Shown here piece after piece: positions 24,341 through 64,000 of a DNA stretch of 64,000 nt; position 1 is the first letter of the stretch, and each line of letters begins with the position of its first letter. This DNA is from Tribonema minus (lineage: Eukaryota > Sar > Xanthophyceae > Tribonematales > Tribonemataceae): positions 372,001 to 436,000 of the forward strand of contig JAFCMP010000006.1 in assembly GCA_017506865.1 (NCBI GenBank), written 5' to 3'. A program made the translations under genes and the position numbers. The notes beneath the pieces are model-generated. The model was not told the DNA's origin. It made no database searches and was given only the letters and a program-made list of their open reading frames with translations.

Positions 24341-24350
24341 CGCTGGACGG

Positions 24351-25380: not shown

Positions 25381-26030
25381 TGATGTGCGTGAGCACAACC
25401 AGTGCACCAATGTCAAACATTGTGCAGATATTTGGCATGCTAATGCATGCGCCAGCAGAAGCAGTTGAGCGGAGAGTCAATTCTGGCATCGGCAATTGCC
25501 TGCAGGACACAGCGAACGACAGTGGACTAGTATCCTGTTCAAAGCTTCTCTATCGGTTCTGATACTTAGTTGCAAGTGTCTCAACAAGGTTTGTTCACAA
25601 TGCCATCCACATACCTTACTGGAATTGTGCTCTCTTTCGGCTTCCACCTGCTCCCCCCCCCAGGAAGCGGGGGTGTGTGTGTGTGTGTGCAGGCGAAGCA
25701 TGTAGTGGCTGCAAGCCAGCCAGGGACTGTAGCGACGGCACTGAAGGTAAGATCCTGCATTTCGGCAAGCTATATGCCGAGCTATATGCAAGGTACGCAG
25801 GCGCTCATTCTCTGTGTTGTATTGTACACTCCTGCAAATTGTGAACATGCTGCAGCTGTCCTTGTAGGGCGTTCAAAGGTTGTGCATTCGGGAGTGCTGA
25901 GCAATGTGCATCACGTGTCGTGCTCGATCGCGCGTCAGTCGCGCTGCTGCAGTACGTGACTGCATGCAATCACCTTCAGTGGCCATGACATCTTTATTGG
26001 CGGGCGTCATGGTCCGCCAGCAATTCATAT
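25381..26030. other. No gene seen
   Basis: Contains a short GT microsatellite at about 25672-25690 and a C-run just before it; nothing coding that I can support. Confidence 0.5.
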
Positions 26031-43512: not shown

Positions 43513-46500
43513 ATGGTCATTCCCGGCGCCACCAGGTGCCTGGCCCTCTGCGGCGCAGCTGCGCACATGCAGGCCATGGCCTTCATCACACCGCACGCAC
43601 CGCACAGGCAGACTCATGTCATGTCAGCTGTGGCACCGGCAATGGAGACAGGTGTCAATCTGGCGCCGAAGAGGGCGGATCCCAGGACCTGGTTTGGAGC
43701 TCTGCAGCAGCAAGCCGCCACGCCAGCGCCATTTCGGGAACTTGCCAGGTAGGTGTGAAAGGAACAAAGCCGAATCCTGCACCAAGATCGTATTGCAATG
43801 TGCCGCTGTCGCCACAGTTTCAAGCGTGCTTGCTGATACCGCTGCCGGCTGATTGACCGTATCGATTCCTGGCTGCTTACGTGCTCCTATTAAAGCGTTG
43901 GTCTTAGCTGGTGTGAGCGTAGAATCCGGCTCAGGAGCGAGGCGCACAGGCAGATTGCGCAAGCCAGAGCTTGATGTTGCGAGCTGAACACACTTTTCGG
44001 TGCCCTGTTGTAGCTATAAACCCATCAGCTCACCACGGCGTGGCTTCTAAAGCGTCGTCGATCGCAGCTCTGACAGTTAAGATCGCTTGTGTGTTTGCAC
44101 ATGTGCAGCGCTGGAGCTGCGACGCTGGACGAAGTGGACTTGCCACACCGCAAGCAGGAGCCCTACCGGTACACAGATCTGGAGGCGATCTTCAGGCACA
44201 GGTACAGTGCCATATTGAAGCAGTTTCTGAAGCACTTCATAGGCAACTTTGGTCTCGATCTTTACTGAGCCAGAAAAAATGGATGAGTGAAGCTCTGCGG
44301 TGGTCGTCATTCACTATGTATAAACCCTATTAACGTTTATTGTCAATAAGCTGAGCGGATGCTGCGGCACTTCTGTTGCGTCTTTGACGTCACTGGTGTT
44401 TGTTGCATGAAGTCCCCATGCGGTACAGCAGGGCTGATGTGAACCTGTCCACAGCAACAGTGCTGAGCGATGGCTTCATCTCTGTGATTTGGTCGAGCAA
44501 TGCTGTTGTAGACTTATGCATCTTCTGTAGTTCAACATGTGTTGACCAGGAAGCAATGGCATTTATTCAGGGCATGGTGCTGCTGTGCACTACTTCATTG
44601 AGTGGCTGACGGCGTGCTGCACGTAATGCAGTGCTGCGCCGCATTTGCAACAACTCCGCACATGCCTTTGCTTGTTTAGAGCACAGATCATGCATCAAAT
44701 GCTCAGCTCAACCGCTTCTCCCCCTTCCCCACAGTTACGACGCAACGGCAGGGTTGCCCGTGTCCCAGGAATTTGCGCAAAAATACCTATCTGAGGCGAG
44801 CAAAGGGCAGCAGCTGGTGTTTGTGAATGGGCGTTTCAATGCGCAGCTCAGCGACACGTCTGCTGTGCCGGAGGGCGTGTATGTGGGCAGCGCGCTGGGG
44901 GCGGGGGAGCATCAGGCAGCTGTCATGGGAGTGCTGGTGAGAGGCTTTTGAGGCTTGAGTTGTGTGTGACTCTTTGCTTGAAGGTGTTCATCGCTTGCTG
45001 CTTGAGAGCATCGGGCGGTTCTTGTATCATGCTGTCACAAAGCAACACCTCGCTCCGATTTGTTATAGTGCATGCTTGTATTCAGATACCATTTGGCAGG
45101 CGCAAGTGCTGGTGAAGATTACGTGGAGCTGCAACAAGCGGATCGCATGAGTCAATGCACTAGAGAAGCTTGTGGAATGCCCGAGCTCCAAGCTGTTCTG
45201 CTAGCTGTTGCCAGGTAGATGTTGAAGGCTTGCCATTTTGAACTGTCAAAGTATTATTGAGGACACCGTCACGCTCACGGCAAAGCATCACATGGCAGCG
45301 CAGGCATACTGCCTTGCCAGCTCACCCCCCAGCGCGGCATGATGCAATGCCACAATGTGTGACGATTTAACATGACTCGGTGCTCTGCAACACAACACTT
45401 GAAAGTAGGTCATACCATGCATGTTGCAGGTTAGCTGCTCATGTTTTCCAGCACATCTGAGTGTCTGATGAGAGTGCCACTAACGTCAGTGCGTCTCATG
45501 AGTGCATTTTATGCAGGACGCGTGGCTTTCTATACCTCACTGCATGCAGAGGTGCACACCTGATTGAACATGAGTCAACTCCCTTATTTGGCAAGCATGA
45601 GTGGCTTCGAGAGCACTCACTTAAAGCAGGTACCACAGTACAACTGTACAGCAGATGATGCCACACAATCATACCATCGCAATTGTCCTGTACAATCAAG
45701 CACGAAGAACATGTCTGGAATGTAAGTAATATCATGCAATGCGATTGGGGGTTGTGTAAGGGCGTGCACCTTACATGAACTGCCAAAATGCAACGCACAT
45801 AGACATTGCGCCAATACCCCATACATGTATGTTGTTTATATACTCTATTACCACGCGACATCAACACTTCAACTTCAACATAGAGTGTATCACGCCCCAC
45901 TCCCCTCTGTTATGCTAAGCTTTGTGCTTTGCATCCCCTGCCGCACTCCCCGCCCCACACCGCTGCATCGCTCAGGACCACCTGCCTGAAGTGGGGGCCA
46001 ACAAGAACACGTGCCAGGGGTCTTTGCCCTTTGCAGCTCTCAACCAGGCGTGCTTCGCCGATGCTGCTGCCGTGGTCATCCCGCCCAACGTCACCGTGGA
46101 GCAGCCTATCCAAGTGCTGTTTGTCACGCACGCGCCGAAGGAGAATGAGGGTGCGTTGACATTTACACAGGGGCGGTCGACGCAGACGCAGTTGCGTAGA
46201 CGCAGTTGCGAGGCTGGAACCTCAACTTCAACAGTGTGGCCAGTTTTGAGCCGCTCGCCCAGGTTGCCTTCGTGTTGCTGCCGCGTGATAGCCACTGCTG
46301 CAGGTCAGATTGGGCCCTTTCAGCCATTGTTGGAGGCTGCAACGTCAGTGATCATGCGCACAATCATGCGTTGCTGCTTGCTGTATGGTCAATGCGCATG
46401 CGAACGAAATACATATGGTGCTCATCCCCTCGCAATGGCGCTGTTGCAAAGGCCCCGCAGACCCACAGCGAGCACGGACACGAATGCGGCCTTTTGCGCG

Positions 46501-49500
46501 TCCCTGAGCAGCCATGACAGAATCGACCTCTATGGACTCTCACGCGCTGCTGTTGGCGCTCCGCGCAACTGCTCTCGCAGGTGGCGAGGGGGGGGCGATC
46601 TGCCATCCGCGGCTGGCGATCGTTGCGGGGGAGGGGTCGAGCGCCCTGGTCATGCAGTCGTATGTGGGGGAGGGGGACTACTTTGCCAACTGCGTGACGC
46701 GCAGCGTTGTGGGCAAGGGGGCGAAACTGTCGCACACGCACTCCCAGGAGCAGAGCGCCAGCGCTCAGCACCTGGATACCGTGGTGGCGGACCTGGCGGA
46801 GGAGGCGGTGTACTCGCTCAGCATGGTGGCGTGCGGAGGGCTGTTTGCACGCTCTAACATTCAGGTGCGCCCTCAAGCGGTATCCATGATACTCGTTGAA
46901 GTACCTGAAATGTATGTCTAATATGTACATGTATAGGCAGAGGCGGTGTACTCGCTGAGCATGGTGGCGTGCGGCGGGCTGTTCGCGCGCTCCAATATCT
47001 AGGTACGCGGGTGTATGTGCATACATTCGTGAACCACACTCAAAATATATAGATACCAGAGGGAGGAGGGAGGAGACGTAGTTTGCTGAGCAACCGGGCT
47101 TTCTGCGCGCTCCAACTTTCAGGTGCGCCCACAACTGTTGTGCGTGATGAATGTGGAAGTACGTAAAATTCATGTCAAGTGTATGCATGTATAGGCAGAA
47201 GACGTACCCGCTGAGCATAATGGGGTCAATGGCGCGCTCCAACATCCAGGTACACACACAATGATATGCACTTGCGTGAAATGAGTATTTCAGTAGCACG
47301 CCATATACAATAAACGATACGGTTGTTACACAGCTTGCTCAAGTACATAGGTAGTTTGTACACACGCAACGTATGTAGAGGGCATGTTACAAACTTTCAA
47401 AGTATATTCAAGTACTTTGTCTCGCATAGGTGCGCTGCAAGCGTCCACGTTGCTGAAGTGAACACCGCTGAGTGTTTTGCAAAGTCACCAAAGCGGCCAT
47501 GTCCCACTGATGATGGTGTCATATGCTACTAGCAGGTCCCTGTATGCCCAGGTATCATGTCTGCTCTCAATGCATACCTGTGTCACGAAGATTGCGTCAC
47601 CATCTAGCGTGCAAGTCAAATGCAACTAGAAGTACATCGAGGCATACATCATCAATAGATGCAGGTGGAACTGCAAGGACGGGCTTGTGCTTTGCGACCG
47701 TTGCATGAGGTACGAACCCCAACTGTGACTCTCCATGAATTGCACACAACTGCAGGAACACAGCAGCTATGCTACGATCACCTCTGTTTGTGCATGATAT
47801 CTGTTTGAAGACTCCTTGGCCCTACTCAAAAGACCCCTCACGTTTTGGAATGTTTCTTGGACAACCACGGGGGAGCTCACTGGTGCAACGGCACGCTGCT
47901 GCTTTGCGGCAGTGCTCTGAACAACCCTTCCTGCTGAGGCCAAACTTAAACGTCAACATCAAATTACAATGCCATACCCAATTCGAATGCAACGCGCAGC
48001 CGGCAATTACAAAAACGCCGCAGCAGCGCTCCGTGCGACACAACTTCCGGCCTCATCTCGCCTTATTATCAACTTCAAGTAGTTGCCAAGCAGGTGTGAC
48101 AGCGACTCGTGTTTGAGGCCTCAAGCTCCCACTGACCCGCGCTTTCTCTGCGCACAATTGTTGATCTACGGTCAGGTGGAGCTGACCGGCGCCAAGGCGC
48201 GCTGCAACCTCAACGCGGCGGCGCTTTGCTCCGGCGACCTAGCCTTTGACCTACACGTTTACGCAGTCGTGACAGTACCACTCTGCCCGCTGTGATGCTT
48301 CTCTTGAAAGTAGTGTTGTCTGTTCAGGTGGAGCTCACCGGCGCAAAGGCGCACTGCAACCTCAACGCGGCAGCGCTCTGCTCCGGCATAGCCTTTATCA
48401 TATATTTAGGCATAACACTACACCTCAACCCCAACACTTTCAAGCCTGACCCTAGTGTGATGCTTTTTTCCCCTCAAAATTGTTCTTGTCCGTTCAGGTG
48501 GAGCTCAATGGCGCCAAGGCGCACTGCAACCTCAACGCGGCAGCGCTCTGCTCCGGCGACCAGTCTGTGGACTTCCACACGCAGATGGGGCACGCCGCGC
48601 CGGACACCACCATGGAGCAGCAGCACCGCAACATTGTGGCGGACTCCTCCGACTGCATCTTCAAGGGGCGCGTGCGCGTCGATGGCATTGCTCAGGTGGG
48701 TGATATGTATACTTGAAGTCGGAAACTTCAAGGGGCGGATTCAAGACTCATCTAAAACATATAGAAGACGTTCAAGGGGCACATGCGCGTGGATGGCATT
48801 GCTCAAGTGGGTGTCACCACTGTGTGCCAGTAAAACATATCGAGTTTCAGGTGGACAGGCCTCGTGTTACTATCATCACATGGAGCTGCCATGACAGTTG
48901 TAGCCAACTCCCAGGTGGAAGATGGGAACCCAGAACATGTAGAGATTGTGGTGGACAAGCCTCGGGTTACGCGATCAGAACAGTGAGATGCGATGACAGT
49001 TCTAACCCGCAGGTGCAAGCTTTTTGTGGCTGAACTCTGAGTTGTGACAGGTGTGAGGTGTCGCTGCATTTGAGCAAGTGGGTCGCTCGTAAATGGGGCG
49101 CGAAAAGCCCACTCATCTCGGAATGCACTTGGTGCAGCAGCACTCCTTCTCCGTGAAGAGATTGTACTGGTAGAATTTCAGGTGCACAAGCCTCGTGTTG
49201 CGCAATCGGAACGGTGAGATGCAATTACAGTTCTAGCGCGCAGGTGCAAGTGACGGTAGTGGGTGGTGGAGTGTTGGGCTGTTATGGGTGGCCGAATATC
49301 GGGTTGTGACGGAGACGAGCTGTCGCTGCAGTTGAGCAAGATCGCCACGCTAGCGACAACAGACAAGGTCGACGCGTTGTAAAGCGATGCCATGCGCCTG
49401 TGTCGTGCCACCGATTGCAGTGCATTTTGAGCTGCAATGCTCGTCTGCACATTTCGAGCATCTGCTCCTTCTTTATCATACTTCAAGTACTTGAAGTCGC

Positions 49501-51622
49501 ATCTGCGAACACAGCAGCTCGCGCAGTTAGTGCCGGGAGACTCTGTGCCACATGCAGGGGCTCCGGGGCAGTTGTGAGCATGACACGCAGTTCAGCAAGT
49601 GTTATCGGCGGTTCAGCAAGTGCAGTGGCGATCTCTGCGCTGCACGGGGGCAGTTCAGCAAGTGTTACAGGCAGTTCAGCAAGTGCGACACAGTGGCGAT
49701 CTCTGCACACACGCCAGCCCCGTGGCCTCAGAACAGGCTGATACTCTCAGCAATGCTAGTGACAGCAATGTAATAATGTGTTAATGCGTGCCATGCATCA
49801 TCATCATTATCGTCATCGCCGCCGCTGTTCTATTCTCTGGCGCCTCAGGAAACGGACGCGCAACGTCAAAACTGCTGCGTAACCCACTCCGTGCTGCGAT
49901 GCTTGACTGCCTCGTAACTTCTACTTCTGAAGTAGCACATCAGGCGAGAGTAACAGCGATGTGTGCTGGTGCTCTATCGCCGCTGTTTCTTTGCTTCGAC
50001 ATTTGCAGGGTACGGACGCACACCAGCTGTGCCGCACGCTCATGCTGTCGGACCGCGCGCGCGTGACTGCCATGCCCAGCCTCGAGATCACTGCGGACGA
50101 CGTCAAGTGCGCACACGGCGCCACCGTCGCTGATCTCGACGAGGTGAATAAACAGTGAAGTTCGTCCGTGCACTGTATACTTGAAGTTACATGCAATGCA
50201 CACATGTCACTCAGCATGGCACTTGAGGGCGCAAGGTGGTTTGAGATCACCGCGGACGACGTCAAGTGCGCGCACGGGGCCACCGTCTCGGATCTGGACG
50301 AGGTAAACTTCACTGCAAACTTGAAGTTACATGAAGAGCGTCGCATCTCACTTAGTATAGGACTTGACGGCGCAAGGCACTTTGAGATCACCGCGGACGA
50401 CGCCAGGTGCGCGCGCGTCGCCACCGTCGCAAATCTGCACAAGTTAAATTTGAGGTTTAGCACTAATATAATAGCCTCGAAGGCAGATGTGAAGTTCACC
50501 CATGTGCTCTATGGACTTGAGGTTGCATGAAGTGGAGTCATGCCATTGACTGTCACGAAGTGCCGATGTCTGTTGCGTACGCGACGCACTCGTTGCTGGC
50601 CTGCCTGAATGTTTGTCTGGGTGCAGTGCTGCACAACCATCCATCTATCGGCATACCCCACCCTCATGCTCATGCTTTGTGTGCCGCGCTCCCGTGTGCA
50701 CAGGAGAGCCTGTTCTACCTGGGCTGCAGGGGCATCAACGCCGCGGAAGCGCGTGCGCTGGTGATCAAGGGGTTCGCCTTCGACATGATCAAGGCTCTGC
50801 CGGACACCAATCTGCAGGTATGTATCTTCACACACTGTGCATGCAACACCCCTGATGTGAAATTTCAACAGTGTGTGAGTAGGACACAATGCTCTTCATA
50901 GAGCAGGACACAATTACCATAGTGCACTCTAACGTTTTCCTAGGACTTATCCCCCGCCCGCAGGGTCATGATATCTACAATTCTGGTAGTATCGTAACGA
51001 GGCTTGCTGCTGATATGCTGTACACTCACAGCTGCCAGTCCTTATTAGCAACTGCTGCATGGGGCTGCTACAGCATTATTGGTGCCACCTGCTGCAACCA
51101 TTCATGATGTGGAAGCTTGCATGCGCACAAATTGCCAATTTGCTAACCAACAGTTGGCTTCACTCAGTGTGTCATACAATACGCCATGCATGAATGCGTC
51201 ATTTGAAAAGCGCTCTTTTGAAGAGTGGCAAACCCTCTGTTTAGCATGCTGGCAGCGCTTTGGCAACCGATGCGGGCCTGGGATGTGCGCGCATTAACCT
51301 CAAGACACACCTCAACGCCTTCGCTGACAGTGTTCACACCGCCTTTGCCTGCCGCACATGTACTTGTTTATTAATTCTCGCTCAGGGCGCGAAAAAGCCC
51401 AGGTAGTGGATGTCCATGGAGTTGCAACCAGAATCAACACATGTCTCTGTGAGCACCTTGAAAATGTCTCAATGCGCATTGCCAATCACTTCTAAACGAC
51501 ATCGCCATATGGCTCATGTACACACATTTGTCCTGCAGGCGCGCGTGCTGGAGAAGCTCATCTCGATGACGCCCAAGTCGAGCCGCGCTGTCACTGCGGA
51601 GGGCGCGTTCTCATCAATATGA
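43513..51622 (+). CDS. SUFD: SufD, Fe-S cluster assembly scaffold protein (chloroplast)
   Basis: Member of the SufBCD complex that builds Fe-S clusters; in plants it is plastidial. Nine exons read in phase: 43513-43748, 44109-44201, 44735-44936, 45976-46150, 46581-46864, 48498-48695, 50009-50143, 50704-50817 and 51539-51622, about 506 residues. The first exon is a basic, Ala-rich transit-like peptide. Then come LPHRKQEPYRYTDLEAIF, QQLVFVNGRFNAQLSD, PFAALNQACFADAA, NVTVEQPIQVLFVTHAP, CHPRLAIVAGEG, the beta-helix part (GAKAHCNLNAAALCSGDQ; MGHAAPDTTMEQQHRNIV), and the C-terminal LEITADDVKCAHGATV, with the conserved Cys-x-His near the SufB contact, then LFYLGCRGINAAEARAL. Length and order match the family. 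A UGUAA word follows the stop at 51747. Three exons have decayed edge copies in flanking introns. Confidence 0.97.
46937..47249 (+). repeat. Three decayed copies of the SufD exon-5 tail
   Basis: Copies at 46937-47002, 47058-47122 and 47195-47249 repeat the last 60-65 bp of exon 5 (GCGGTGTACTCGCTGAGCAT and CGCGCTCCAA), each with its donor (CTAGGTACGC, CAGGTGCGCC, CAGGTACACA). The first copy has TAG in place of the exon's final CAG; the later two are more decayed. The spacers share GTATGCATGTATAGGCAGA-like sequence. Confidence 0.88.
48165..48400 (+). repeat. Two copies of the SufD exon-6 head
   Basis: Acceptor plus the first 60-65 bp of exon 6 (GGCGCCAAGGCGC and CTCAACGCGGC) recur at 48176 and 48328, upstream of the intact exon at 48498. 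Similarity stops after CTCCGGC. The copies have acceptors but no matching donor. Confidence 0.88.
48728..48815 (+). repeat. Copies of the SufD exon-6 tail
   Basis: TTCAAGGGGCACATGCGCGT and GATGGCATTGCTCAAGTGGG at 48771-48811 repeat the end of exon 6 and its donor. A shorter fragment (CTTCAAGGGGCGGATTC) lies at 48728. Confidence 0.8.
49560..49700 (+). repeat. GGCAGTTCAGCAAGTG short tandem repeat in a SufD intron
   Basis: The block GCAGTTCAGCAAGTG or a close variant recurs about five times between 49585 and 49695, interleaved with CAGTGGCGATCTCTGC. Non-coding; it lies in intron 6. Confidence 0.75.
50240..50442 (+). repeat. Two copies of the SufD exon-7 tail
   Basis: Copies at 50240-50302 and 50381-50442 repeat the last 60 bp of exon 7 (GAGATCACCGCGGACGACG) with the donor (GAGGTAAACT in the first; lost, AAGTTAAATT, in the second). 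Each unit also carries an ACTTGAAGTTACATG word or its relic from the intron. Confidence 0.9.
51365..51400 (-). mobile_element. Second GGGCTTTTTCGCGCCC tail
   Basis: The same 33-bp sequence as at 40907-40941, in the last SufD intron. The left flank is ATGTACTTG; no clear target duplication on the right. Identity of the two copies points to recent insertion. Confidence 0.7.
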
Positions 51623-52235
51623 GAACTTGCATACAAGAACACCGATACAAGAACGCCCTTTTTGACGCGCGTCTGCTGGGATTTACTACGGGCCATCCTG
51701 TGCAGCGCTTGGTGCAGTTGGCGCATGGCAACGCAGCGGCACTGTGTGTAATATGATTTTTCTGATGCTGTTCGATGGCCTTCACACGTGCACTGCTGTG
51801 CTGCTTCTGTGGCTGCTTGCAACTATGGGTGACTGTTGCCCGTGTGACATGAGCGTTTGGACCAACGCCAGTGCACGCAAGTGGAACTGGCATTGGCGGC
51901 TATCACGATCAGACTTTGCTTTGGCATACTTCGAGGTACATGACATAGATGTGCAGCCCATGGTCCAATGCCGCATTTGCAGTTCCGCACACAGCTGTGT
52001 AGTCAATCAGCCAGAAACAGATGAGATGTGAAGCATTATGGGAGACAAAGCACCGACACATGAGTCATGGGAGACAAGGCGCCATGCACCAACGGTATGT
52101 AGGCACTGTCATCTGTTGTTCATTGTTGCCCCATAGCAGTGGCATGTGCAATGAGTCAATGAGCCTGTCAGCTTCGCTCTGTTGTATCAGGGCTCTGGCG
52201 GTCACCAGTGCGTGTAGCTTTTGAGTGCTGCAGGC
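51623..52235. other. SufD downstream region, no gene seen
   Basis: Contains the likely SufD polyadenylation word TGTAA at 51747-51751; otherwise nothing supported. Confidence 0.5.
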
Positions 52236-52236
52236 G

Positions 52237-54511
52237 TCAGTCGCGGCAGCACGTCTCAGCTACCATCACAATCCCCCTGTAATTGTAGGTTACGATCAGG
52301 TCATGCACCATGCCACTGGTGACAGACATGGGACCCTGTCTGCAAGAAAACCGCAGCGGGCACTGCTCGCTGCGCTGTGAGGCTTTGTGTTGCTCACGCC
52401 ATTGGTCCTCAGACTCCACTATGATGAAAGGCAAGCACGCTCTGGTCACTGCGCCAGGTGGTGTCCGCTTGGGCTCAAACTATTACGGTAGGCATCACAT
52501 GGTCGCAGTTTGCGCGCAGTCTCTGGCGCCTGACAACCCCTGTACGTTGCAAGAAACTAAGTGCCGCCGCCTGCCATGCACGCGTCGCGGCTGCGCTGGC
52601 TGGCAATCCGTGACACATGCATGGCCTTCAGCCAGGCTTGCTCGGCGGCTCCAGCGCTGGCGCGATGCAGTAGCGCTTCACCATTCGCTTCTCATACTTC
52701 TCGGTCACCTCAGGAACCCTGCGCAGTAGTGACAGCGTTGGAGTGAGAATTGTCCGCGATGCGGTTTGTGAGCCATGGACAGCTTGCGTGTGCTGAGCAG
52801 ATGTGGGAGGTGGTGCACCAGGTGATCACTGCGTATGCATGCAGCGGTGTGTCGTGCGACTGCAGACAGTGCTCCGAGTAGCGTTTGGAGACGGGGCGGT
52901 ACGTATGTAGCAGTTCAACAGTCAGCAGGTACCCTAGCAGCGGCAGGCCCTGCCCCGCCGCCACCGACTGAAGACATACTTAACTACATGCGTCGCGTGC
53001 ATCGGACGAACCGTCTCTTGTTTCGATGCCCCGCCGCCAAAAGTGTGTATGCCTTCGTACGCAACCACCTGTATATACAAGCAGTAGCGCCGCACACGAT
53101 TGCAGGCGCAGCAGTTCACCCCCGCAGCCACCGACTTGGTGATAGAAGTATCAGATACAGACGCCGCGTGCATCAAATACAGACGTCGCGTGCATTGGAC
53201 GAGCCCGCTCTTGTCTCGATGCCGCCGAGACGGTGTATGCCTTCCTATGCAACCACATGTAGTCTATATACAGGCAGTAACGTCGCACAACTGCAGGCGA
53301 TGAGCGCGCGGCACTGCACACGGGACTGAGCGCTGATGCGAGGCGCTTAGGGTTAGGCTTAGCACAATTAGGGTTAGCACATGACAGCACGCTTGCGCCT
53401 CACACACAGTACGCCAGTGCTGCAGATGCCAAGGAAACTGGTCGTTCCAGAGGCCTTCAAAGCCTTGATGCCTTCCGCACCCTGCGCCACACGGAGAGTC
53501 ATGGCGCTCTTGACCCTGAAGGACCACCCGTGGTGAAGAGTGGCCAAGAGAGGTCGCAGCAATGAATTTAAATCTAATTGGTGAGCATTCAAACCACTCT
53601 TTTCAAAACTGATCTTCATGAAATAAAAAAAATTGGACAAAAACATTTAGCTGGCAACTATCTAAAAATTAATTCAATAGCTTCAAAAGTTTCAATCCAC
53701 TACGAGCAGGCGACACGCAGGCTTGCCTGTCCCTCCAGATCTGCTTCTGCTCCGGCGACATGCTGCTCCACTTTGCGAGTCGCTGTTGCTTGGACAGATG
53801 TTTCGCGCCTTTGTAGCCGAAGTGTTCCGCAGACACAAACACCTGGTTCCCAACCTGCATCGCAACACGAGCAAACAGCAACGACCATTTTTGTAATAGT
53901 CGAGGCCATACGCACACATTCGCCATGCAGGGACCACAGTCACAAGTGTGGGTGTAACTGCAGCTATATCAGGGTTCACGATGCACGAGGTGTATCATCA
54001 GAGGCGCACAGGGCGGCAAGTGTTCCGCCGTATGAATCGAGCCAGGCGCGCACGAACAGCACCATGTGACAAGCCACGTATGCCAGCTGCTGCTGTCACT
54101 TTCGATCAGCCGTAACAGACACGTGCTGCTCTCTGACAAGCCGCGGTCCGGCACTACACATGCCGGTGCGCATTGCAGACAGGCGCAGATGTCACCCAGG
54201 CGAGCGATGCACAGCACCGCCAAACTTCAACACAGAGTCACGGACTTCGCCACAAATTGGTGCTGATGTCAGCACGCATCCATACGTTCATACAGACAGC
54301 AGCAATGGAGAAAGCGACGCTGCTTGCCTTGGGCGGCAACGGCCCGGGGTCCGTGGGGTCGGTGCCCTTCTTAGGCAGCGCGTCGTTGTCTTCGGTGGGG
54401 AAGCGCTCAGCGTTTAGGCGGTCGGCGTCAAATGGCATCACGCCCTCGCGTTTCATGCGCGCCGCACCCGTGAGCCACACGTGCCGCATGCGCGGATCCA
54501 TGGCCTCCCAC
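52237..54511 (-). CDS. Unrecognised gene, HMG-box-like segment possible
   Basis: Exons that agree in phase: 54511-54328, 53854-53727, 53515-53413 and one from 52949 leftward. The first contains MDPRMRHVWLTGAARMKREG and ends in a GC donor (AAG, then GCAAGC), although a GT donor 54 bp later is also possible. The second contains FVSAEHFGYKGAKHLSKQQR and KWSSMSPEQKQIWRD and also ends in GCAAGC. The third contains TLRVAQGAEGIKALKASG. The WSSMSPEQKQxW pattern recalls HMG-box helix 2, but the rest does not fit well. The 3' end is unresolved: stops near 52728, 52651 (ends APALEPPSKPG) and 52237 (ends VTYNYRGIVMVAETCCRD) are all possible. The start is not certain; the ATG at 54503 is a candidate. Confidence 0.5.
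52985..53300. repeat. About 190-bp degenerate tandem duplication
   Basis: CGTCGCGTGCATYGGACGA, TTGTYTCGATGCC and GCAACCACMTGTA blocks recur in the same order, first near 52991-53110 and again near 53185-53300. Intronic or intergenic in the unrecognised gene. Confidence 0.7.
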
Positions 54512-54624
54512 CTGGCATGGGGGTGTGCGTGGGGGGGGGGGCAGGGGTGTGTGAAATGAGCGCTGGTTTGTAGCAGTCAGGTTAAACTTAAAGTTGTGCA
54601 CTTGACGTTGCAGTTATATTCAAG

Positions 54625-54710
54625 ATCTGTTTCATGCGCGCCGCGTTTGTAAGCCACACGTGCCGCATGCGCGGATCCATGGCCTCCCACCTGGCATGGG
54701 GGGGTGGTGG
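54625..54710 (-). repeat. Decayed copy of an exon head upstream of the intact exon
   Basis: CATGCCAGGTGGGAGGCCAT, then GGATCCGCGCATGCGGCACG recurs here as at 54516-54440, including the acceptor. Similarity ends after the block matching AARMK. The flanks carry long G-runs (54532 and 54721). Confidence 0.85.
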
Positions 54711-54711
54711 T

Positions 54712-55482
54712 GTGTGTGTGTGGGGGGGGGGGGGGTAGGTAGGGTATGCGTGCATAAGCGGGGGGGATGTTGGGGTGCATGACGGTGCGGTGGCGCATCT
54801 ACAAGTTATGACTGACTGCGTTTTGAGTAAAGCGAGACCGGTCGCGCCGATCCCATCTGCGACAGATGTGATATAAATACACAGGTGTGGCGCGCTGCTT
54901 CAAGGGATGATGTGGCTTGTGTCGCCGTTTGCACCGCAGCTCGCGGGCAGCGGATGCAGGCTGCCAGCAGCAAGACCACATTTGGTGTGCCTATGTTCCT
55001 GCGCAAAGGAGCCGATTCGCTGCTGTGTATCGTAGCCACGTAGAAAGCAGATTCAGGTATTGGAAGGCTGACCTACATCGAGGGGAAGTAGAGTGAGACA
55101 TCGGATGGCTCATGGATGTACACAAGTACATGAAATGGAATATGACTGCATGACACCAGTATATACAGATCAGCCCCCTGACTGGCTGTGACTGAAAGAC
55201 AATATACCGCGAAACCCTGATGGTGAGATCGTTGTGATGCGGTGTGCCACATGAATGTTGTCGTTAATAATAATAATAATTGATAATAGCGCGAGCGTAA
55301 TGCTCAGTGAATGAACGGGGGCATGACGCTTTTCCAAAAGGAAATAGCTGCTCATAAGAGACGCAGATGAAGGTACCAGTACAACCGCAGGTGACCAGAC
55401 AAAGACAATCGTCAGCAGCAATCAGCTCATGATAGATAATACGAAACTCGCGGTGTCAAAAGCCTTCAACATATCGCGTTGC
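54712..55482. other. No gene seen; TATA-like word
   Basis: Contains a poly-G run (54721-54735), a minus-strand TATTTATATCA near 54868-54880 that could be a core promoter for the gene to its left, and a TAA microsatellite at 55267-55281. Confidence 0.4.
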
Positions 55483-55764
55483 TCACTTCTTGACTGATTG
55501 CCGAATGACCTCCTGAGGCGTCAGAGTCGACTTGCTCTCCCGGTAGGTGGCACGTTTGGCTCGGAGATACAGGGCAAATCCATCCTTGAGGTGCACGAGC
55601 ATCGCACGTTCCCGCTTCAAGCTCCAGAACTGTGGCCGTGGCCGCGGTGCTACTTTCTTCTTGTTTGCGGTGCGCTTCTTCTGCGTGTCCTTTGCAGCGA
55701 CTGACGCGTCATCGCCTGCATCGTCCGCTGCTGAGTCGGGCGTCTTATCACCATCAGTCTCCAT
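55483..55764 (-). CDS. Small basic protein, unrecognised
   Basis: Complete frame from ATG (55764) to TGA, 93 residues, no intron needed. The N-terminus is acidic (METDGDKTPDSAADDAGDD), followed by a lysine patch (KKRTANKKKVAPRPRP) and a more structured half (FWSLKRERAMLVHLKDGFAL). The lysine-rich patch suggests a nuclear or nucleolar protein, which is inference. It is divergent from the CLEC16A-like gene, 259 bp apart, which supports it being real. Confidence 0.6.
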   Translation of the reverse strand: METDGDKTPDSAADDAGDDASVAAKDTQKKRTANKKKVAPRPRPQFWSLKRERAMLVHLKDGFALYLRAKRATYRESKSTLTPQEVIRQSVKK

Positions 55765-56023
55765 CGTGGTTCATGCAGAGCACACTGTCTCGGCTTCAAC
55801 TCGCCATCAAAAACTTCAAGCTGGAAGTTCGTGAAACTTGTTGACCTGCGTGCCATCAAAGCAACTGATTCGCGCCCCGACTCTGTCCATCCATTTGATT
55901 CGACCAGCCGGGACGCACCTCGAGCTGCAGAAAGCTAGCTGCGGTCACAGGCAGCTGCATTGCTGCGGCGGCCCACTGTGAGTATTGCCGAACGCCATCA
56001 TTAAGCGCTGCCGAAGCTCAGCC
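55765..56023. promoter_or_regulatory. Divergent promoter of the small protein and CLEC16A-like gene
   Basis: 259 bp between two outward-facing ATGs. It contains CATCAAAAACTTCAAGCTGG near 55805. No clear TATA box seen. Confidence 0.45.
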
Positions 56024-58689
56024 ATGTCCTTTCTGTGGGGTGGCAATAGGCACAAGAGAAGGCCACCCGAGCAGACGGAGAACCGCCAGCGACGCATCGA
56101 TGGCTACAGCTACACGCTGCAACACTTGAGGGATTTGATATCTGCGCTCATGGTGAGTTCCTGTTGATGTTAGCGATAAGTTCCAGGTATGCTGTAATGA
56201 AAGCGTGTGCGCTCTCATATTGCGCACTTTCTCTCCGAATTCGCTGCTGCCTGTTGCACGCGTTGCGCGCAGGCGGTCAGCACGGTGACGCCAGAAAATG
56301 AGAAAGGTGTGATTGAGGCGTTGCGAGCCATGTCCGAGGTGAGAGCCTGCCAAAACGTGTTATAATGGTGCCGTAAATGGTGATAGCATGCGAATGAACT
56401 TGCACAGAAGCAACGAGTTCATTGTGCAGCTGCTGACGGCCCTGGCGATGCTACCGCATAAACCAACCGTTTGAGAAACTTCCGACTCAAATGTGCTCAT
56501 GCTGCAGCACACTGCACACCGTGCATGCCATGGCACACCATCACGCCAGTCTGCATAATGCCTTCTGGCTTCCGGACGCCTGATTGGAGATGTTCATGAG
56601 CCATGCAGGGCCTGAAATGTAGCACATCTACCCCAAAAGGGGGCGGCAAACAAATGGCAGCTGACTGCATGTTGAGCGCTGCAGCAGCATGATACATACA
56701 TACTCTGAATGGCACAGCAGCTCACATAGGAGAGTCACTTATACGCACCTCGCAGTCTCCCTCACTCGTACATGCTCCCGCTGGCAGACACATCAGGACG
56801 AGTGGAGGCCATGGAAATTCATGTCACTAGCAACTAGCCAGCACTTTCCATGCATCAGCGAGGCTTGCGGCACCAACGCCCAGAGCCGGCTCGACCTGAC
56901 CACGTGGCAGACTCAAACTCGCACCGGCTGTCAGAAATCTCTGCTCATGAAAAGCGGCGCCGCAATCAAGCTCGCCCCCTATCCCCTGCCCATATCGCTT
57001 TGCGTACGGGCTGACCTCAGGTGGTGGTGATGGGAGAAAACCGAGAGATGCGGCTGGCTCGTGCGCGGCAGGACAGCCTGGTGTTGTCACCAACTGTGGC
57101 GGGGGCAGTGGCGGCGGAGTTGCAGGAGGAGGCGATACCGGAAAAGAAAGCGGAGGAGCTCTTTGCGCTGTTCTGCGAGAAGAACATGATGGCAAGGCTC
57201 ATTGGTCTGCTCAGGGCGAACCACTGCCCGGTGGCGGTGCAGGTTAGTGCACGTGTTGTAATCAAGTGGGCTTTGGAGGACAGGGTGTGTGCGTGTGTGT
57301 ATGTGTGATGCTGACAGCGGAGGGCGCGCGTGCACGTCAGTAACTCAAACTTCAACCCCAACCCCAAGTTGTAGTTGATGTTTGATTCTGTTGAAGCGAT
57401 GAGGCCGCCACGGCGTACGTGTCACAGCCGTGTGTAAGCGTGCCCGGTAGCGGTCGATGCAATGCGGTCAGCTGACTGCGTGCAGCTGGCCCAAGTAGCT
57501 GCTCTGTGCACAGGCTCCGTCGAAGGCAACGTGCATGCGGTGCTCTCATGGCGTGCAAGTCAGGCAGTGTGCACCAGCACAAGTGACACAATTCATTATC
57601 GATTTTACACACAATGGCAAGCATAAAAGCGAAGGATCGGCTTCCACATGCGTTGAAGTGCTGCAAGACACGTGACTGGCCCTGTCCTTTGTGGCTGGAG
57701 TTTCAGTCCCACTTCCATCCATATACATGTCCTGATGCGGTCTCTGGGTCTCAATTTGCAAGCGCCGTCGCAGCGTCCTGACACCCATTAACATGTGGTA
57801 AAGCGCATTCCTGCTGATCAAGCTCCAATATGTTGGTGACATATGGCAACAATCAACTGTAGAGCATACAACATCAAAACCACTATATGAGCACGAGCTC
57901 AAAGCTGCTTCTAGCGCCGCTTTTCATTGTTGCATCTCGCGCATATGCACAATACGCTTTAACATTACCTCCGACGCAAAGTGGGGGCTGTTGAACTTCA
58001 AGGGTTTTAATCTTTGAAGAGGCAGCCAGAAGCGTGGCAGTTTTACGCAGGCTGCCAGTTCAGTTACTTGAGCACATCCTTAGGGACTGACTGCACTTAT
58101 ACTTCACTTTGCACTAGATTGAATGTGGGTTATAGGAGACTCAATGTCTTGTAAGTCATTGTGCAATGATCTGCATTGTGAGAATGTTTCGCGGACAAAT
58201 TGCCGGTACCACCAGAGCGTGACGTGTATGTAGCTTCGCGTCTTGAGAGTTCTTTCATCAACCTCATCGGTACCGTCAATACATCTTGCGGTTAATTTCG
58301 AGTGCTGGAAATCAGACTCAAAGCATTTGCACAAGGCAAAACAGAGTTCCGCGCGGTTGATTTTGATGTTCGCCAAACATCTCGCCTTGCCAACAGCGTG
58401 CCACAAGCATGTAGCCGCTAGAGTCACTTTGCTGGTGGTGAGTATTGCTGTGCTGACTGGCACGAGGCCAAGTCTAAGCGCTGTCATGTGCTGAGCGCTG
58501 TCATGTATAAAATTGCTCGCGACCACTACTGCAGGTGCAGGCTGACACAGACAGCGCCCACCCTGGCCAGCATGCGCCTCAAAGCTCTACTGTACTGGCG
58601 CTTGGATCATGATGAGCGCTGTCGTGCTGAGTCTGAGCCGTGCTGCTGCTGCGACATGTGCTGAGCGCTGCTGTGCTGAGCCTGAGCTG

Positions 58690-58748
<59 letters not shown>

Positions 58749-61700
58749 CTGCTAGTCCACTTTATTGCTGGGCGCTGCTGCTGCTGATTCCGAACTGCGT
58801 CGCCGCTGCATTCGCTGCGCGCCGCCGCAGGTGCAGGTGATACAGACCACGAGCATACTGGTCATGAACGTGCGCAGCGACACCAGCCTGTACTACATTC
58901 TGAGCAACAACCACGTCAACGATCTCATTGAGCACCACTTCGACTTCAGCGACGAGGAGGTGAGCGCTGCCACCACACATAAGTTTCTCGGTAAATTTCT
59001 AGTAGTGATGAAGCTGTGTATGCTGTTGCATGTGCTCTGTGCTTGGCTGTTTGAGGTGGCACAGTGCTGCCACCAGGCAAAAGCTTATCGGGAGATTTCG
59101 AGTAGTGTTGAAGTTGTGTACGCTGTTGTATGTGCTCTTCAGACAGCTCTTTGTGGCAATGGCACAGAGCCACTGCCGTGGCGTGCTTTCACGCTCATTC
59201 GACAGGCGCTACTGTGGCTGGCCTGCTTGCGACTGCTGCCGTTGTGCAGCCCGTGGCGGCAGCCAATGTTGGCGTCTTGAGTCAGAGTCATAAGTCAGAG
59301 TCCAGCGCTCATGATCGTCACGTGTGCAAAGTCCACACAAATGACTCTTTGCCTACCTTCACGAAACATACACTTTCACGAACTTGGCTAAGCCAAACAT
59401 TTGATTTACAGCCACAAATCATCTTCTGGGCGCGGGCGCTGTGTCACACAGCCATGGCCAATGCGCTCAGAGCAGAGCACTGTTGCCATCACCGTGCCGC
59501 CGCCATTCCCTCAATCTGAAACTGCGAGACCTCGGTAATTACATCTCTTTCTTGATATCGCTGACACGGAGCCGTTCTCTTCCCCCCCCCCTTCAACTTC
59601 AAAAACCTGCAGGTCCTCAGCCACTACATCTCCTTCTTGAAGACGCTGGCGCTGCGCCTCAGCGCCAACACGGTTCACTTCTTCTTCGTCCCTGACAGCG
59701 GCTACGGCGCAGCCACTGGCGGCGGCGGCAGCGGCAGCAGCGGCGGCGGCAATGGCGGCGGCGGCGGCGCCGGCGCCGGCGGTGGCGGCAGCGGCAGCGG
59801 TAGCGGCGGCAGCAGCGGCGGCGGCAGCGGCGGCGGCGGCAGCGGCGGCGGCAGCGTGTTTCCGCTGTACACGCACGCGCTGCAGCACATCGCGGACTGC
59901 GACAGCCACGTGCGCATCGCCGCGCTCACGGTGGCGCTGCATGTGCACAGCCTCTCCGACCCCCAGGCATGTAAAGTATCATGGGGTATGCACCAATTCA
60001 GAGTGGTGATACCATATGTAAGTAGAAGTCAACAGCCACGTGCGCAGTTGCCGCGCGCGCTGACGGTGGTGTTGCACGTGCACAACCTGGCCGACCCCCA
60101 GGTATGCAAGGTGTCGCGGAGTACGTGCCAATGCCGTTTTGGTGACAACGCATCCAGAAATTGACAGCGACGCGCGCAATCGCAGCGCGCGCTCACGGTG
60201 ACGCTGCCGTACGCTGCGCAGCCTCCCTGACCCCCCTGGCGGTATGCAGGTATCATGGGGCATGTACCGCATGCATGTGTAGGGTTTGCACAGCCTCAGC
60301 GGCGGTGTGGTTGCGGCCATGGCTGCTGACGTGTCGAGCCAGAGTGCGCAGCCTCTGTGACCCTTGGGTATGTAGGTATCATGGGGCATGGGTGTATGTA
60401 CGTGTCGCAGGTATGTAGGCATCATCGGGTCCAACATGAAGGTACAGTATGGCTTGTATTTGCGCAGGCCCAGCGTTGTCTTGTACGCACCGGCAGGATG
60501 GGGTATGGTATGTATGTACGTGTCGCAGCACTGGCGAAGAGCGCTGCTGCGTGCTAACGGTCCATGAGTGTCCCCGGCACATCGTCACCCCGCCCTGCGA
60601 TTTGCATGCGATGGTACTCTATCAAGCACTGCTGCATGCTGGCAGTTACATATGTCCCCAAGCACGTTGTCACCCCGCCCTGCTCATATGCAATGGTCCC
60701 TGTCAGGTGTTGGCTCTGAAAAGCCACCTGCTGTGTGTGCCAAACCTTCCTGTGAACCAGTTCCTTATGGCCCTGCGCTGAGAGTAGACAGGCCTGTGGC
60801 GGTTTCCACCTCCTGTGCACTAGTTGCAGTACTTGACCCCTATGTTGCGCGCGCATGAATTCCATCAACAGGTGGTGGCATTTCTCAGCAGGCCCGCCAG
60901 CCGCGCGGCCTTCTTTGGGCCCCTGGTCAGCAGACTCGCGTCACAGGTGAGTCACTGAGTCACTGAGTGAGTGAGTCCCCCTAGTACCCTGCGCAGCCAT
61001 CCACCCAGCAGCCTCAGGCAGCTGCCTCCCGCTGCCGTCTACTTTGAAGTATGCAACTAGCCTGGAGACTAGAATTGCTTGGACCATGTGATAGAGGAGG
61101 AGGGGGGGCGTGCCAGAGGCGACTACACCTAACCCTTACCCTGACCCTGACCCTGACCCTACTCTAACCGCCAATGCAATGTAGCACCCTCGTACTGTAC
61201 AGTCTGTACCTCGATGAGCTTGTCAGAGGTGACCAGCGTTAACCCTCGCCCTACCTAACCCTGCCGCTAACCCTAAGTAGCACTCTCATACACCGAAAGC
61301 TCGTCGAAGTTCAACTGACTGCAAGAAATCCGCAACGGCAATGGCGGCTTTGGCGGCACCAGCACAGCCAACAATGGTGATAGGATCAACAGTGGCCGAG
61401 GTGGAAAGTTAAATTCAGAAATGGAACGGCAAAAGGATCTTCCTCTATTTCATATTTGGCGCTCTGGAATACGAGCGAACCCGCGGCGACGACAGGGCGC
61501 ATGCCGCCGCAGCAGGAGCAGCAGCGGCGGCGGTGGCGACACATGTAACGCCACCTCCTGAACTGCCGCCATTAGGAATATGTATTAACTACCTGTCATC
61601 GCTCCGGCGCGTGTGCGTATAAATACAATACATTTCGCTAGCAGCGAATTCGCCAGGACTCAGTCTGTGGTTGGTATCCGCAGCACACGAGCGTTTGCAG

Positions 61701-63619
61701 AACATCCTGCCATGCACCATGCCGTTGGCCCCGTCAACTCCTGCGTGACGATTGGTGCAGCAGGCTGCACCACATCGGCTGCGTGCTGACAATACCACTC
61801 CTGTCGCACAGCATCGGGCCCTCTTGCTCACGGCAAGTGACTGTGAAGACGCTCATGCATGTGTACACTGCTTGCTGCGCGTTCGACAGTGTGAGGCGCT
61901 GGCGCGTGACTGTGCAGCACCCACTGCCTTCTAACTGCGTGTGTTCGCCTCTCGCTGCGCGTTCGACTGCAGTGTGAGACACTGGCGAGCGCGTATGCAG
62001 CAGCCAGCGGCTGCAACTGCCTTCTAACTGCGTGTGTACGCTGCTTGCTGCTCGTTCGACTGCAGTGTGAGGCACTGGCGAGCGACTATGCAGGGCCGAG
62101 CAACGGCAACACTCATGGCAGCGGCGCTGGCGCTGCTGTGAACAACGGCAGCGCAAGCCCCGGACCCGGGTCGGTGCGAGAGGCGCTAGCGGCAGTTCAA
62201 GACTCTATCTACTACTTGCAGGCAAGTTGAACTTCAACATGAACTTAAGTGCTTGCATTCGAGGCACTAGCGGCAGTCCAAGACTCTATCTACTACTTGC
62301 AGGCAAGTTGAACTTCAACATGAACTTGAGTGCTTGTATTCGAGGCCTAGTGGCAGTTCAAGACTCCATCTACTACTTGCAGGCAAGGATTTGAACTTCA
62401 ACATGAACATAAGTGCTTGCATTTCACCAGGTTAGAGGCACTAGCGGCAGTTCAAGACTCAATCTATTACTTGCAGGAAAGTTGAAGTTTAACACTTGCG
62501 TTCTACCAGATAAGCGAGAGCACTGCTGCGAAGTGGCACTCACGGATGGCGTGTGCGCCGTAGCTGTGTGGCAGCTTGTCTCTTTGAAGTCCTACACAGG
62601 GTATATTACGTCTTACACAGGGTATGTTATGTGTGGTTACGCCAAACCAGCGCCCACATAAAGGGTTAGGGTTAAGGTCAGGAAAGCGGTCTGGTTGTTT
62701 ACTGATGATGCACTTGCAGGCTCAGTGGGTTGATCCATGTGCGCTGCTAACAGGCGATATGGTGCCCATTCACTTTGGTGACCGCGTCCCCCTGTGCCGA
62801 CGTCTGACATCACGTTAGTGCGCGCATCAGACTCATGCACAGTCAACTTGACCGTTGTTGCAAAGTCAAACCCTAAATTCAATCAGGACGGATGCATAGT
62901 CAACTTGACCGTTGTTGCGAAGGCAGGCACTTGAGTGGTCCTGCGCGCCTGTGCTGACGTCTGACATGATGTTTGAGCGCGCATCGAACTCGTACGCTAC
63001 CTTGCATAGCCTACAGAGGTCAACTTTTTGTGACGAAGTTCAACTCTAGCTCAATTGGACGGAGCGCTCACGATAGGTACTTGACAAATTTGTGACAGTG
63101 CTCGTCCCACTACGACCATGCACGGGCACCCGTCAGCGCTTTCTGCTCCTGCGGCATAGTCAAGTGCTGCTTGAAGTGCAGCATGAAGACACTTCATGAT
63201 TTCAAGCACTGCTGGTAGCGTGCTTCCATACCGTCCAGGCCTGTATACTAGCCCACGGCCTTGACTGCGCATGCGCATCAGTGCTGTGTCACCGCCGATC
63301 ACACCATTCAAGCCTGTAGTCAGGGCGCCCAAGTTCAAAGGTGACGTGCCATCTTGCGCATAGAATCGTCCGCAGCTCCAGCGCTCAGCACCACCTGACC
63401 CCAGCGCTGCTGTTTTGTTGCGCAGGACGTCATTTGCATCATGCGCCCATGTTCAAAGGTGAAGGTCAGAGGTGATGTGCGATCCTGTGCATGGAACAGT
63501 CCGCAGTGCCACATCTTGACCACGGCGCTGTTTTTTTTTTCCGTTGTGCAGGACGTCTTTGAAGCTGCGGTGGACAGGCTGCAGGTGTGCGAGGGCTTGG
63601 CCAGGCACATCATTGACAC
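56024..63619 (+). CDS. CLEC16A: CLEC16A/TT9-like protein (FPL domain), 3' end missing
   Basis: Relative of animal CLEC16A/Ema and plant TT9/GFS9, membrane-trafficking and autophagy factors of the Golgi-endosome system. Eight exons read in phase: 56024-56152, 56273-56338, 57021-57242, 58831-58959, 59613-59966, 60872-60946, 62066-62221 and 63552-63619, then off the right edge. Family marks: TPENEKGVIEALRAMSE, FALFCEKNMMARLIGLLR, DTSLYYILSNNHVNDLIEHH, FDFSDEE, HYISFLKTLALRLSANTVHF and FPLYTHALQHIADCDSHVRI. Exon 5 has a glycine-rich insertion of about 45 residues from a (GGC)n tract between the FFFVPDS and FPLYTHA blocks. Exons 5 and 7 appear to end in GC donors (CAG, then GCATGT; CAG, then GCAAGT). 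Most introns contain copies of neighbouring exon edges. Confidence 0.95.
58690..58747 (+). repeat. (CTG)n microsatellite
   Basis: About 18 CTG units in the intron before CLEC16A-like exon 4; the surrounding DNA repeats TGCTGAGCGCTG and GTGCTGAGCCTGAGC. Confidence 0.95.
58966..59175 (+). repeat. About 105-bp tandem duplication in a CLEC16A-like intron
   Basis: Starting with GCTGCCACCA, two diverged copies share TAGTGWTGAAGYTGTGTAYG and CTGTTGYATGTGCTCT. The second begins near 59068. Confidence 0.75.
59519..59575 (+). repeat. Decayed copy of the CLEC16A-like exon-5 head
   Basis: CTCGGTAATTACATCTCTTT, then CTTGATATCGCTGACACGG corresponds to the start of exon 5 (CTCAGCCACTACATCTCCTT) about 95 bp downstream. 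No good acceptor remains. Confidence 0.6.
60030..60440 (+). repeat. Three copies of the CLEC16A-like exon-5 tail
   Basis: Copies near 60030-60101, 60180-60245 and 60320-60370 repeat CGCGCTGACGGTG, then CACGTGCACAACCTGG and GACCCCC, with a GTATG donor. The first copy has a proper CAG-GTATGC donor, whereas the intact exon has CAG-GCATGT. The spacers share ATCATGGGGCATG. Confidence 0.85.
61129..61276. repeat. Interstitial telomere-like repeats
   Basis: Clusters of CCCTAA, CCCTGA and related words (CCTAACCCTTACCCTGACCC and CTAACCCTGCCGCTAACCC). Smaller traces occur at 5206-5220, 53349-53380 and 62663-62675. No long perfect array. Confidence 0.6.
61878..62000 (+). repeat. Two copies of the CLEC16A-like exon-7 head
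   Basis: GTTCGAC(TGC)AGTGTGAGGC and ACTGGCGAGCG recur at 61879-61916 and 61960-62000, upstream of the intact exon 7 at 62066, in units of about 85-95 bp that also share CCTTCTAACTGCGTGTGT. Confidence 0.9.
62257..62480 (+). repeat. Three copies of the CLEC16A-like exon-7 tail
   Basis: GAGGC(A)CTAGCGGCAGT, CAAGACTCTATCTACTAC and TTGCAGGCAAG recur at about 62259, 62343 and 62433 in units of about 80-90 bp. Units carry GAACTTCAACATGAAC and AAGTGCTTGCATT from the intron; the last ends GTTGAAGTTTAAC instead. The GC donor is kept in the first two copies (GCAAGT; GCAAGG) and lost in the third (CAGGAAAG). Confidence 0.93.
62830..62935 (+). repeat. Short direct repeat in the last visible CLEC16A-like intron
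   Basis: CAGTCAACTTGACCGTTGTT (62839) and ATAGTCAACTTGACCGTTGT (62896) repeat with a period of about 58 bp. Confidence 0.7.
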
Positions 63620-63890
63620 GTGAGCCCTGACGTAATTGACCCAATTGCCACCCTATGCTTAACCGCTTCTTGGCGGGGGCACGCAAGCCCTTATGCCAGC
63701 CTAACAAGGCCAACGACACGTGCGCCCCAGATGTAACTGACCCGAACTGCAGCCCTAGCCCTAGCCGTTTTTTGGCCAGACACGCAAGCTCTCACCGGAA
63801 TTGACCTGAACTGCAAGCCTACCCCTAGACGCGATTTGGCCGGGGCACGAAAGCCCTAACGCTAGACCTGGCAAACAACCCCAACTTCTT
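63600..63890 (+). repeat. Three units of exon-8 tail plus intron start
   Basis: GACACGTGAGCC (the exon-8 end and donor at 63619) recurs as GACACGTGCGCC at 63715. GGCCNGNGCACGNAAGCC and CTGACCCGAACTGCA-like words repeat at about 63670-63690, 63735-63795 and 63800-63865, units of about 70-100 bp. Confidence 0.7.
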
Positions 63891-64000
63891 GCGCGGTCAG
63901 GCATGGACGTGAACCGTAACACCGAGTAGCCCGGACTGCAACTCTGAGTTGAACGAGTTGATCGGCGCGCGCAGCTGACTCTGCTTTCTTCACGTAGTGC

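Follow-up and report, generated by a model that had tools for sequence, protein, structure and literature searches.

In tandem exon duplication and in mutually exclusive exons, whole exons are copied with both of their splice sites, and introner-like elements form families that are dispersed over the genome. The copies described here come from a 64,000-nucleotide stretch of the xanthophyte alga Tribonema minus (contig JAFCMP010000006.1, positions 372,001 to 436,000; the whole stretch is referred to as the window) and from further loci in its genome assembly (158 Mb in 554 contigs). They resemble mutually exclusive exons in that exon sequence is copied beside itself, and introner-like elements in that intron content grows. 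Unlike the former, they consist only of exon heads or tails and are apparently dead; unlike the latter, they adjoin their own exon.

Other described systems share the border-crossing step or the resulting repeats. Tandem genomic duplication is one of seven proposed mechanisms of intron gain in a review (PMC3443670), and in the potato RdRp gene a new intron arose when a segment spanning an intron-exon border was duplicated in tandem (PMC4974935). As in Tribonema, the 3' part of an intron was duplicated together with the adjoining 5' portion of the following exon, splice signals included. In potato, however, a single event produced a new intron and changed splicing, whereas in Tribonema there are many events, the exon set is unchanged, and the introns are longer. 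Neointrons of Daphnia carry internal direct repeats that were interpreted as staggered double-strand breaks (PMC4202315). Direct repeats within introns are in both organisms a passive route to greater intron length, but the exon-matching repeats in Daphnia measure 4-12 bp, whereas Tribonema units are ~55-290 bp long, span a splice site, and form arrays. Border-crossing tandem duplication is known, and the present case differs in density, in how evenly donor and acceptor edges are affected, in array growth, and in longer introns with putatively dead exon edges. So many such events in one genome are unusual. Open-access literature searched for the phenomenon, for Tribonema introns or the Tribonema genome, and for interstitial telomeric repeats in algae yielded no description of the phenomenon.

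Geometry and abundance of exon-edge copies

The SufD gene in the window was rebuilt with nine exons and an open spliced frame. From an internal methionine onward, the spliced product is 100% identical to the annotated T. minus protein P0001 (463 amino acids), which omits every exon-edge copy in the gene; the next relatives listed for it are from Chrysoparadoxa australica (53%) and the brown alga Pylaiella littoralis (46%). The earlier note on this DNA had claimed that copies of exon heads, with the acceptor, lie upstream of the intact exon and copies of exon tails, with the donor, downstream. For SufD exons 5, 6, and 7, the rebuilt exons and the coordinates of the copies agree with that claim (Table 1).

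The same geometry was examined in a homology-defined set of 47 exons (9 from SufD and 38 from kinesins) at ten loci, nine of which belong to one protein family. Kinesin genes were located by a Pfam profile search, and their nine loci were picked by the number of matched exons. Within 1.5 kb of these exons, 42 same-strand copies and 0 reverse-strand copies were found, and all 42 follow the head-upstream, tail-downstream rule. As far as ends could be resolved, every downstream copy reaches within ~7 bases of the exon 3' end, and upstream copies all start at the exon 5' end, except that one begins 17 bases into the exon. The copies form 24 families on 20 exons, with 21 lying downstream and 21 upstream, and the distance to the nearest copy has a median of 168 bp (quartiles, 120 and 193; range, 55-291). 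Tandem duplication over one border can only give this geometry, which therefore argues for tandem over dispersed copying and is no independent law. No complete copied exon with both splice sites occurs in the homology-defined set, in which copies cover a head or a tail only. A preference for copy distances divisible by three was considered and rejected (18/42, not clearly above one third).

Matches of introns to their own flanking exons were compared with matches to the introns of other genes, a small-scale form of the genome-wide check that the earlier note had suggested, and an excess was found. The comparison covered the 42 exon edges of 21 introns (8 from SufD and 13 from kinesins) whose two ends were both resolved. 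The kinesin introns were those kept from 18 attempted; introns whose ends could not be resolved were dropped, and one boundary pair was chosen by hand among lower-ranked candidates. In the null set of 1368 comparisons, the 99th percentile of the score was 27 and the maximum was 69, the latter taken as a match between paralogous kinesins. Own-intron copies exceed the 99% level at 18 of the 42 edges, against ~0.4 expected and 1/42 on the minus strand, and eight edges score above the highest null value.

Close repeats are likewise mainly direct when exons are disregarded. Self-comparison of the window yielded 32 direct and 0 inverted pairs less than 500 bp apart, and bases 200,001-210,000 of 20 other contigs (20 ten-kb stretches, 200 kb) yielded 109 direct and 4 inverted close repeats. 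Direct pairs occur in 17 of these 20 stretches, and a single stretch (L009) contributes 28 of the 109. A codon model was applied to the stretches and the window; trained and tested on one and the same exons, it recovers 36 of the 47 and makes no false call over 19 kb of intron sequence. Copies accompany 43 of its 126 predicted exons (80 copies versus 9 on the reverse strand), and the window, including SufD, gives 17 of the 80. The geometry is followed by 61 of the 80 copies, and a further 15 reach neither end of the predicted exon. The exon-edge duplication pattern is confirmed as real and extends outside the window, and the number of events, which the earlier note had called remarkable, is indeed high.

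Composition and fate of the copies

Intron-side homology was tested in the 39 of 42 copies that were long enough, three being dropped as too short. It is significant in 27 (z above 3), with an identity of 0.73-0.96, gaps not counted; one more copy lies at a z between 2 and 3. The duplicated unit therefore spans the exon-intron border, which supports the tandem duplication across that border proposed beforehand. Mean identity in the 27 copies is 0.82 on the intron side and 0.90 on the exon side, i.e., the intron part is ~1.8 times as diverged. In ungapped comparison, similarity ends 6 bases behind the donor because conservation is limited to the live exon and its splice site. This loss of similarity past the splice site was considered as proof of RNA-based copying and rejected, since gapped alignment recovers intron-side homology in the 27 copies.

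Mismatches in the SufD/kinesin set are distributed over the three codon positions as 46/49/121 in 2149 aligned bases. Codons with a single difference (161; 26 codons with more than one difference were excluded) were used to examine replacements: those at first and second positions comprise 36 conservative and 30 radical changes, against 32.9 and 31.7 expected, and 0 stops were found against 1.6 expected. For dead copies beside a constrained exon, the calculated share of third-position differences is roughly 0.46-0.49, and the share in the 80 codon-model copies is 0.445 (232/521), near that expectation. Random-looking replacements and an annotated SufD protein that skips the copies therefore suggest that only the full exon is useful, as the earlier note had supposed. 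The copies are read from these substitution patterns as dead, despite the third-position excess of the SufD/kinesin set (described below). Codon periodicity over all local pairs was tried as a sign of coding and rejected, as there was no overall excess. In SufD, no new intron has come from the duplications, the annotated protein corresponding to a splice that skips all copies.

Two SufD exons illustrate the history of individual copies. Exon 6, the only exon searched genome-wide, has four matches in the genome, all within the SufD locus. At one site, both of its head copies encode threonine where the live exon encodes asparagine, and Chrysoparadoxa also has threonine (VELTG); the live exon was therefore probably altered there after the duplication. 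The nearest copy of exon 5 shows seven third-position differences and one first-position difference (CAG to TAG) across 63 exon bases. It ends in this TAG stop, just outside the alignment used for the replacement test, and no homology is detectable between its intron side and the live intron (z of 1.0). A second unit pair lies 258 bp beyond the first; the whole-pair match is 70%, and the exon part is far more decayed. A parallel is seen in locus L028, where the nearest copy (4395-4463; exon identity, 0.97) lacks intron-side homology and a farther copy (4695-4792; exon identity, 0.91) has it. The cause may lie in an older two-unit history or in gene conversion. That the nearest exon 5 copy diverges mostly at synonymous sites was considered as proof of function and rejected, since the pooled replacement test lends no support and the larger sample looks neutral.

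Table 1. Live exons and exon-edge copies in the window (positions within the 64,000-nucleotide stretch)
Feature	Position	Strand	Basis
SufD exon 5, live, tail duplicated downstream	46581..46864	+	Spliced frame, annotated protein
SufD exon 5 tail copy with donor, nearest	46940..47008	+	Alignment
SufD exon 5, second tail unit pair, more decayed (copy part 47096-47128)	47096..47253	+	Alignment
SufD exon 6 head copy with acceptor	48176..48239	+	Alignment
SufD exon 6 head copy with acceptor	48328..48387	+	Alignment
SufD exon 6, live, head and tail duplicated	48498..48695	+	Spliced frame, annotated protein
SufD exon 6 tail copy with donor	48771..48809	+	Alignment
SufD exon 7, live, tail duplicated	50009..50143	+	Spliced frame, annotated protein
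SufD exon 7 tail copy with donor	50243..50304	+	Alignment
SufD exon 7, second tail copy, same in-exon breakpoint as the first copy, more decayed	50384..50436	+	Alignment
PRA1 exon, putative tail array, units of ~231 bp and shorter	33879..34478	+	Self-comparison, Pfam
CLEC16A-like (FPL) exon tail array	59901..60390	+	Self-comparison, Pfam; copies 60032-60101, 60163-60235
CLEC16A-like gene, 81-bp array of exon tail with donor	62179..62494	+	Self-comparison; exon read by eye
CLEC16A-like gene, acceptor-bearing pair (63331-63434 / 63462-63560), head copy upstream	63331..63560	+	Exon read by eye
Exon head with acceptor	54450..54527	-	Read by eye
Copy of the 54450-54527 exon head, upstream on that strand, 92% identity	54629..54706	-	Self-comparison

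Elsewhere in the window, the PRA1 and CLEC16A-like (FPL domain) genes were confirmed by Pfam. The array at the PRA1 exon is a putative array of exon tails. Edge copies reported for the CLEC16A-like gene were recovered as tail arrays and as an acceptor-bearing pair at 63.4 kb, some of the exons being read by eye. In its 81-bp array, the exon tail is followed at 62222 by GCAAGT, a possible GC donor that is repeated in the copies (likewise by eye). Near 54.5 kb, a minus-strand exon head, read by eye, has its copy on the side that is upstream for that strand. The repeat at 52982-53299 and the exon-edge copies that the earlier note claimed in the M16 gene stand as candidates. Larger recent direct repeats with 94-98% identity occupy 7511-9149 (units of ~815 bp) and 24350-25385 (units of ~446 bp); the former is coding-like and by eye resembles a retroelement fragment. 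In L006, the region 1797-2449, with a minus-strand predicted exon at 2389-2517, holds four copies of one coding segment with third-position bias and is possibly part of a gene with real repeated exons instead of dead copies.

Position of duplications and growth of arrays

Duplications concentrate at intron ends, and arrays mostly reuse one breakpoint; both observations go beyond the earlier note. In a scan restricted to introns, 29% of 1796 overlapping sixty-base segments have a same-strand partner in their own intron, at a threshold passed by 1% on the minus strand. The share drops from 28-42% in the first 400 bp next to an exon edge to 19% between 400 and 600 bp and 4% farther than 600 bp. 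Eight duplication-bearing introns are 900 bp or longer, and circular shifting in them gave a P value of 0.0036 for clustering in a border zone of 400 bp, three zones having been tried. Introns with duplications are longer than introns without (15 versus 6; P = 0.007), and longer introns also offer more room for them. Noncoding DNA of the window and the 20 stretches has a duplication density of 11-13% up to 400 bp from predicted exons, 7% between 400 and 600 bp, 4% between 600 and 1000 bp, 8% between 1 and 2 kb, and 5.5% at greater distances. In 7 of 10 multi-copy families, the in-exon breakpoint is common to all copies within 4 bp, and arrays therefore mostly grow from one founding event. Pair identities range from 65-70% to >98% (193 pairs), which fits the continuing process suggested in the earlier note, but the two pairs above 98% are not placed at exon edges.

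One young noncoding tandem duplication of 152 bp, with 98.75% identity and no predicted exon, lies at 2715-3026 of the window. The junction overlap is 6-8 bp in this duplication and ~2 bp in a duplication in L031, a finding that suits microhomology and proves nothing. Among short words in the sample, including the window, the AACTTCAAC and ACTTGAAGT types are over-represented ~10 times and CAGTGCTCA ~9 times relative to expectation, and the AACTTCAAC and ACTTGAAGT types occur inside duplicated intron units.

Interstitial telomeric tracts (TTAGGG, in both orientations) are scattered in noncoding DNA, with 98 in 286 kb. They are present at 5206-5220, 53347-53377, 61240-61276, and 62662-62674 of the window and also in L005-L027, and none of 81 tracts overlaps a predicted exon. 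Exact three-repeat matches, with overlaps counted, number 11,474 genome-wide, against 0 for the reversed control. As candidates for junction filler, telomeric tracts are not enriched at repeat ends (8 versus 10.1 expected); between copies there are 13 versus 3.2, an excess confounded by masking.

Origin of the copies and consequences for intron length

It is very probable that the copies arise by tandem duplication across an exon border, that each copy then decays, and that later units are added mostly by amplification of the first unit, with a lengthening of introns as the outcome. Segments of roughly 55-290 bp would be duplicated in tandem, and where exactly one splice site is crossed, the gene would still work. 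If an exon tail and the start of the intron were duplicated, the first donor would still be used, and if the end of an intron and an exon head were duplicated, the last acceptor would be; in either case, the copy would end up within the intron and make it longer. Selection would keep the live exon edge and its splice site while copy and intron decay, and old copies would therefore be visible only as fragments made of exon plus splice site. Later copies would usually come from amplification of the first unit. The duplication step itself may be break repair or slippage that uses microhomology.

Several results weigh against this account or against the part that exon borders play in it. Four of the 80 codon-model copies contradict the geometry, and no copies were found at two of the nine kinesin loci (L032 and L033). 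Intron-side homology is not detectable (z of 2 or less) in 11 of 39 copies, some of them with 90-97% exon identity. The third-position share of differences in the SufD/kinesin set is 0.56, or 0.62 with one copy per family (bootstrap range, 0.53-0.71), above the share calculated for dead copies. Border clustering is weaker in narrower zones (P = 0.038 at 300 bp and 0.11 at 200 bp). Duplication density is higher near predicted exons than far from them in 12 of 20 testable sequences, with the reverse in 6 and a tie in 2, which is only a trend, and the contrast is gone at a GC content of 0.60 or more.

The raised third-position share, the lack of stops in the compared codons, and the nearest SufD exon 5 copy, which differs nearly only at third positions, would fit functional alternative exons, cassette or mutually exclusive, selected for their protein product. 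This is nevertheless very unlikely. The copies are partial, replacements are as random as expected given codon position, and so few stops are expected that their absence says little; moreover, TAG closes the exon 5 copy, none of the copies appears in the annotated SufD protein, and the larger sample is neutral at third positions. Gene conversion between live exon and copy could refresh the exon part and make copies older than they appear; high exon identity where the intron side has no homology (L028 4395-4463, L029 4726-4783, and SufD 46940-46998) points in that direction. In the 27 copies with intron-side homology, however, the divergence ratio of the two sides is near the prediction for decay alone, and conversion alone does not produce a synonymous bias, so that a substantial contribution from conversion is doubtful. 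The sequence is an assembly of 554 contigs, in which tandem joining of diverged haplotypes or of read errors might mimic duplications. Joined haplotypes, however, would duplicate whole stretches, whereas units of 55-290 bp with 0-19% exon divergence are found at single exon borders in many genes and the matches of SufD exon 6 are confined to its locus; an assembly artefact is accordingly a highly improbable source. Slighter still is the chance that the fragments, which are intronic and carry splice signals, were inserted from elsewhere as retroposed RNA, by transposon capture, or as introner-like elements: all examined copies are on the same strand as their own exon and adjoin it, donor and acceptor edges are evenly represented, most copies include unspliced intron sequence, and the single exon searched genome-wide matches its own locus only.

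Within border-crossing tandem duplication, the clustering at intron ends admits two explanations. A conserved exon may preserve enough similarity among copies for unequal exchange to recur, and intron growth would in that case proceed from the ends. Exons would then act as anchors: selection would hold an exon and its copy alike for longer than two intron copies, units would be added in register by unequal exchange or slippage, and exon conservation would drive the ends-inward expansion of introns. This extension is offered tentatively and is somewhat more likely to be wrong than right. The clustering might instead mean that exon-rich or GC-rich DNA is a plain duplication hotspot, without anchoring by exon conservation, an explanation that deserves serious weight although it falls a little short of even chances. 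Duplication density does climb with GC content, and at 0.60 or more it is about equal near and far from predicted exons. At a GC content of 0.45-0.55, on the other hand, duplications are about three times as dense near exons as farther away (0.11-0.14 versus 0.036), and the common in-exon breakpoints indicate growth of existing arrays.

Intron lengthening by routes other than transposons is thinly documented. Dead exon fragments of this kind are datable markers. Each has one counterpart under constraint, in the live exon, and another free of it, in the intron, and the rate, size, and place of duplications could be read genome-wide from a single assembly. Decoy donors after many exons and decoy acceptors before them, which the cell must ignore, provide a natural test of splice-site choice. 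If anchoring by exons is true, exon conservation itself would drive intron expansion in the Tribonema lineage.

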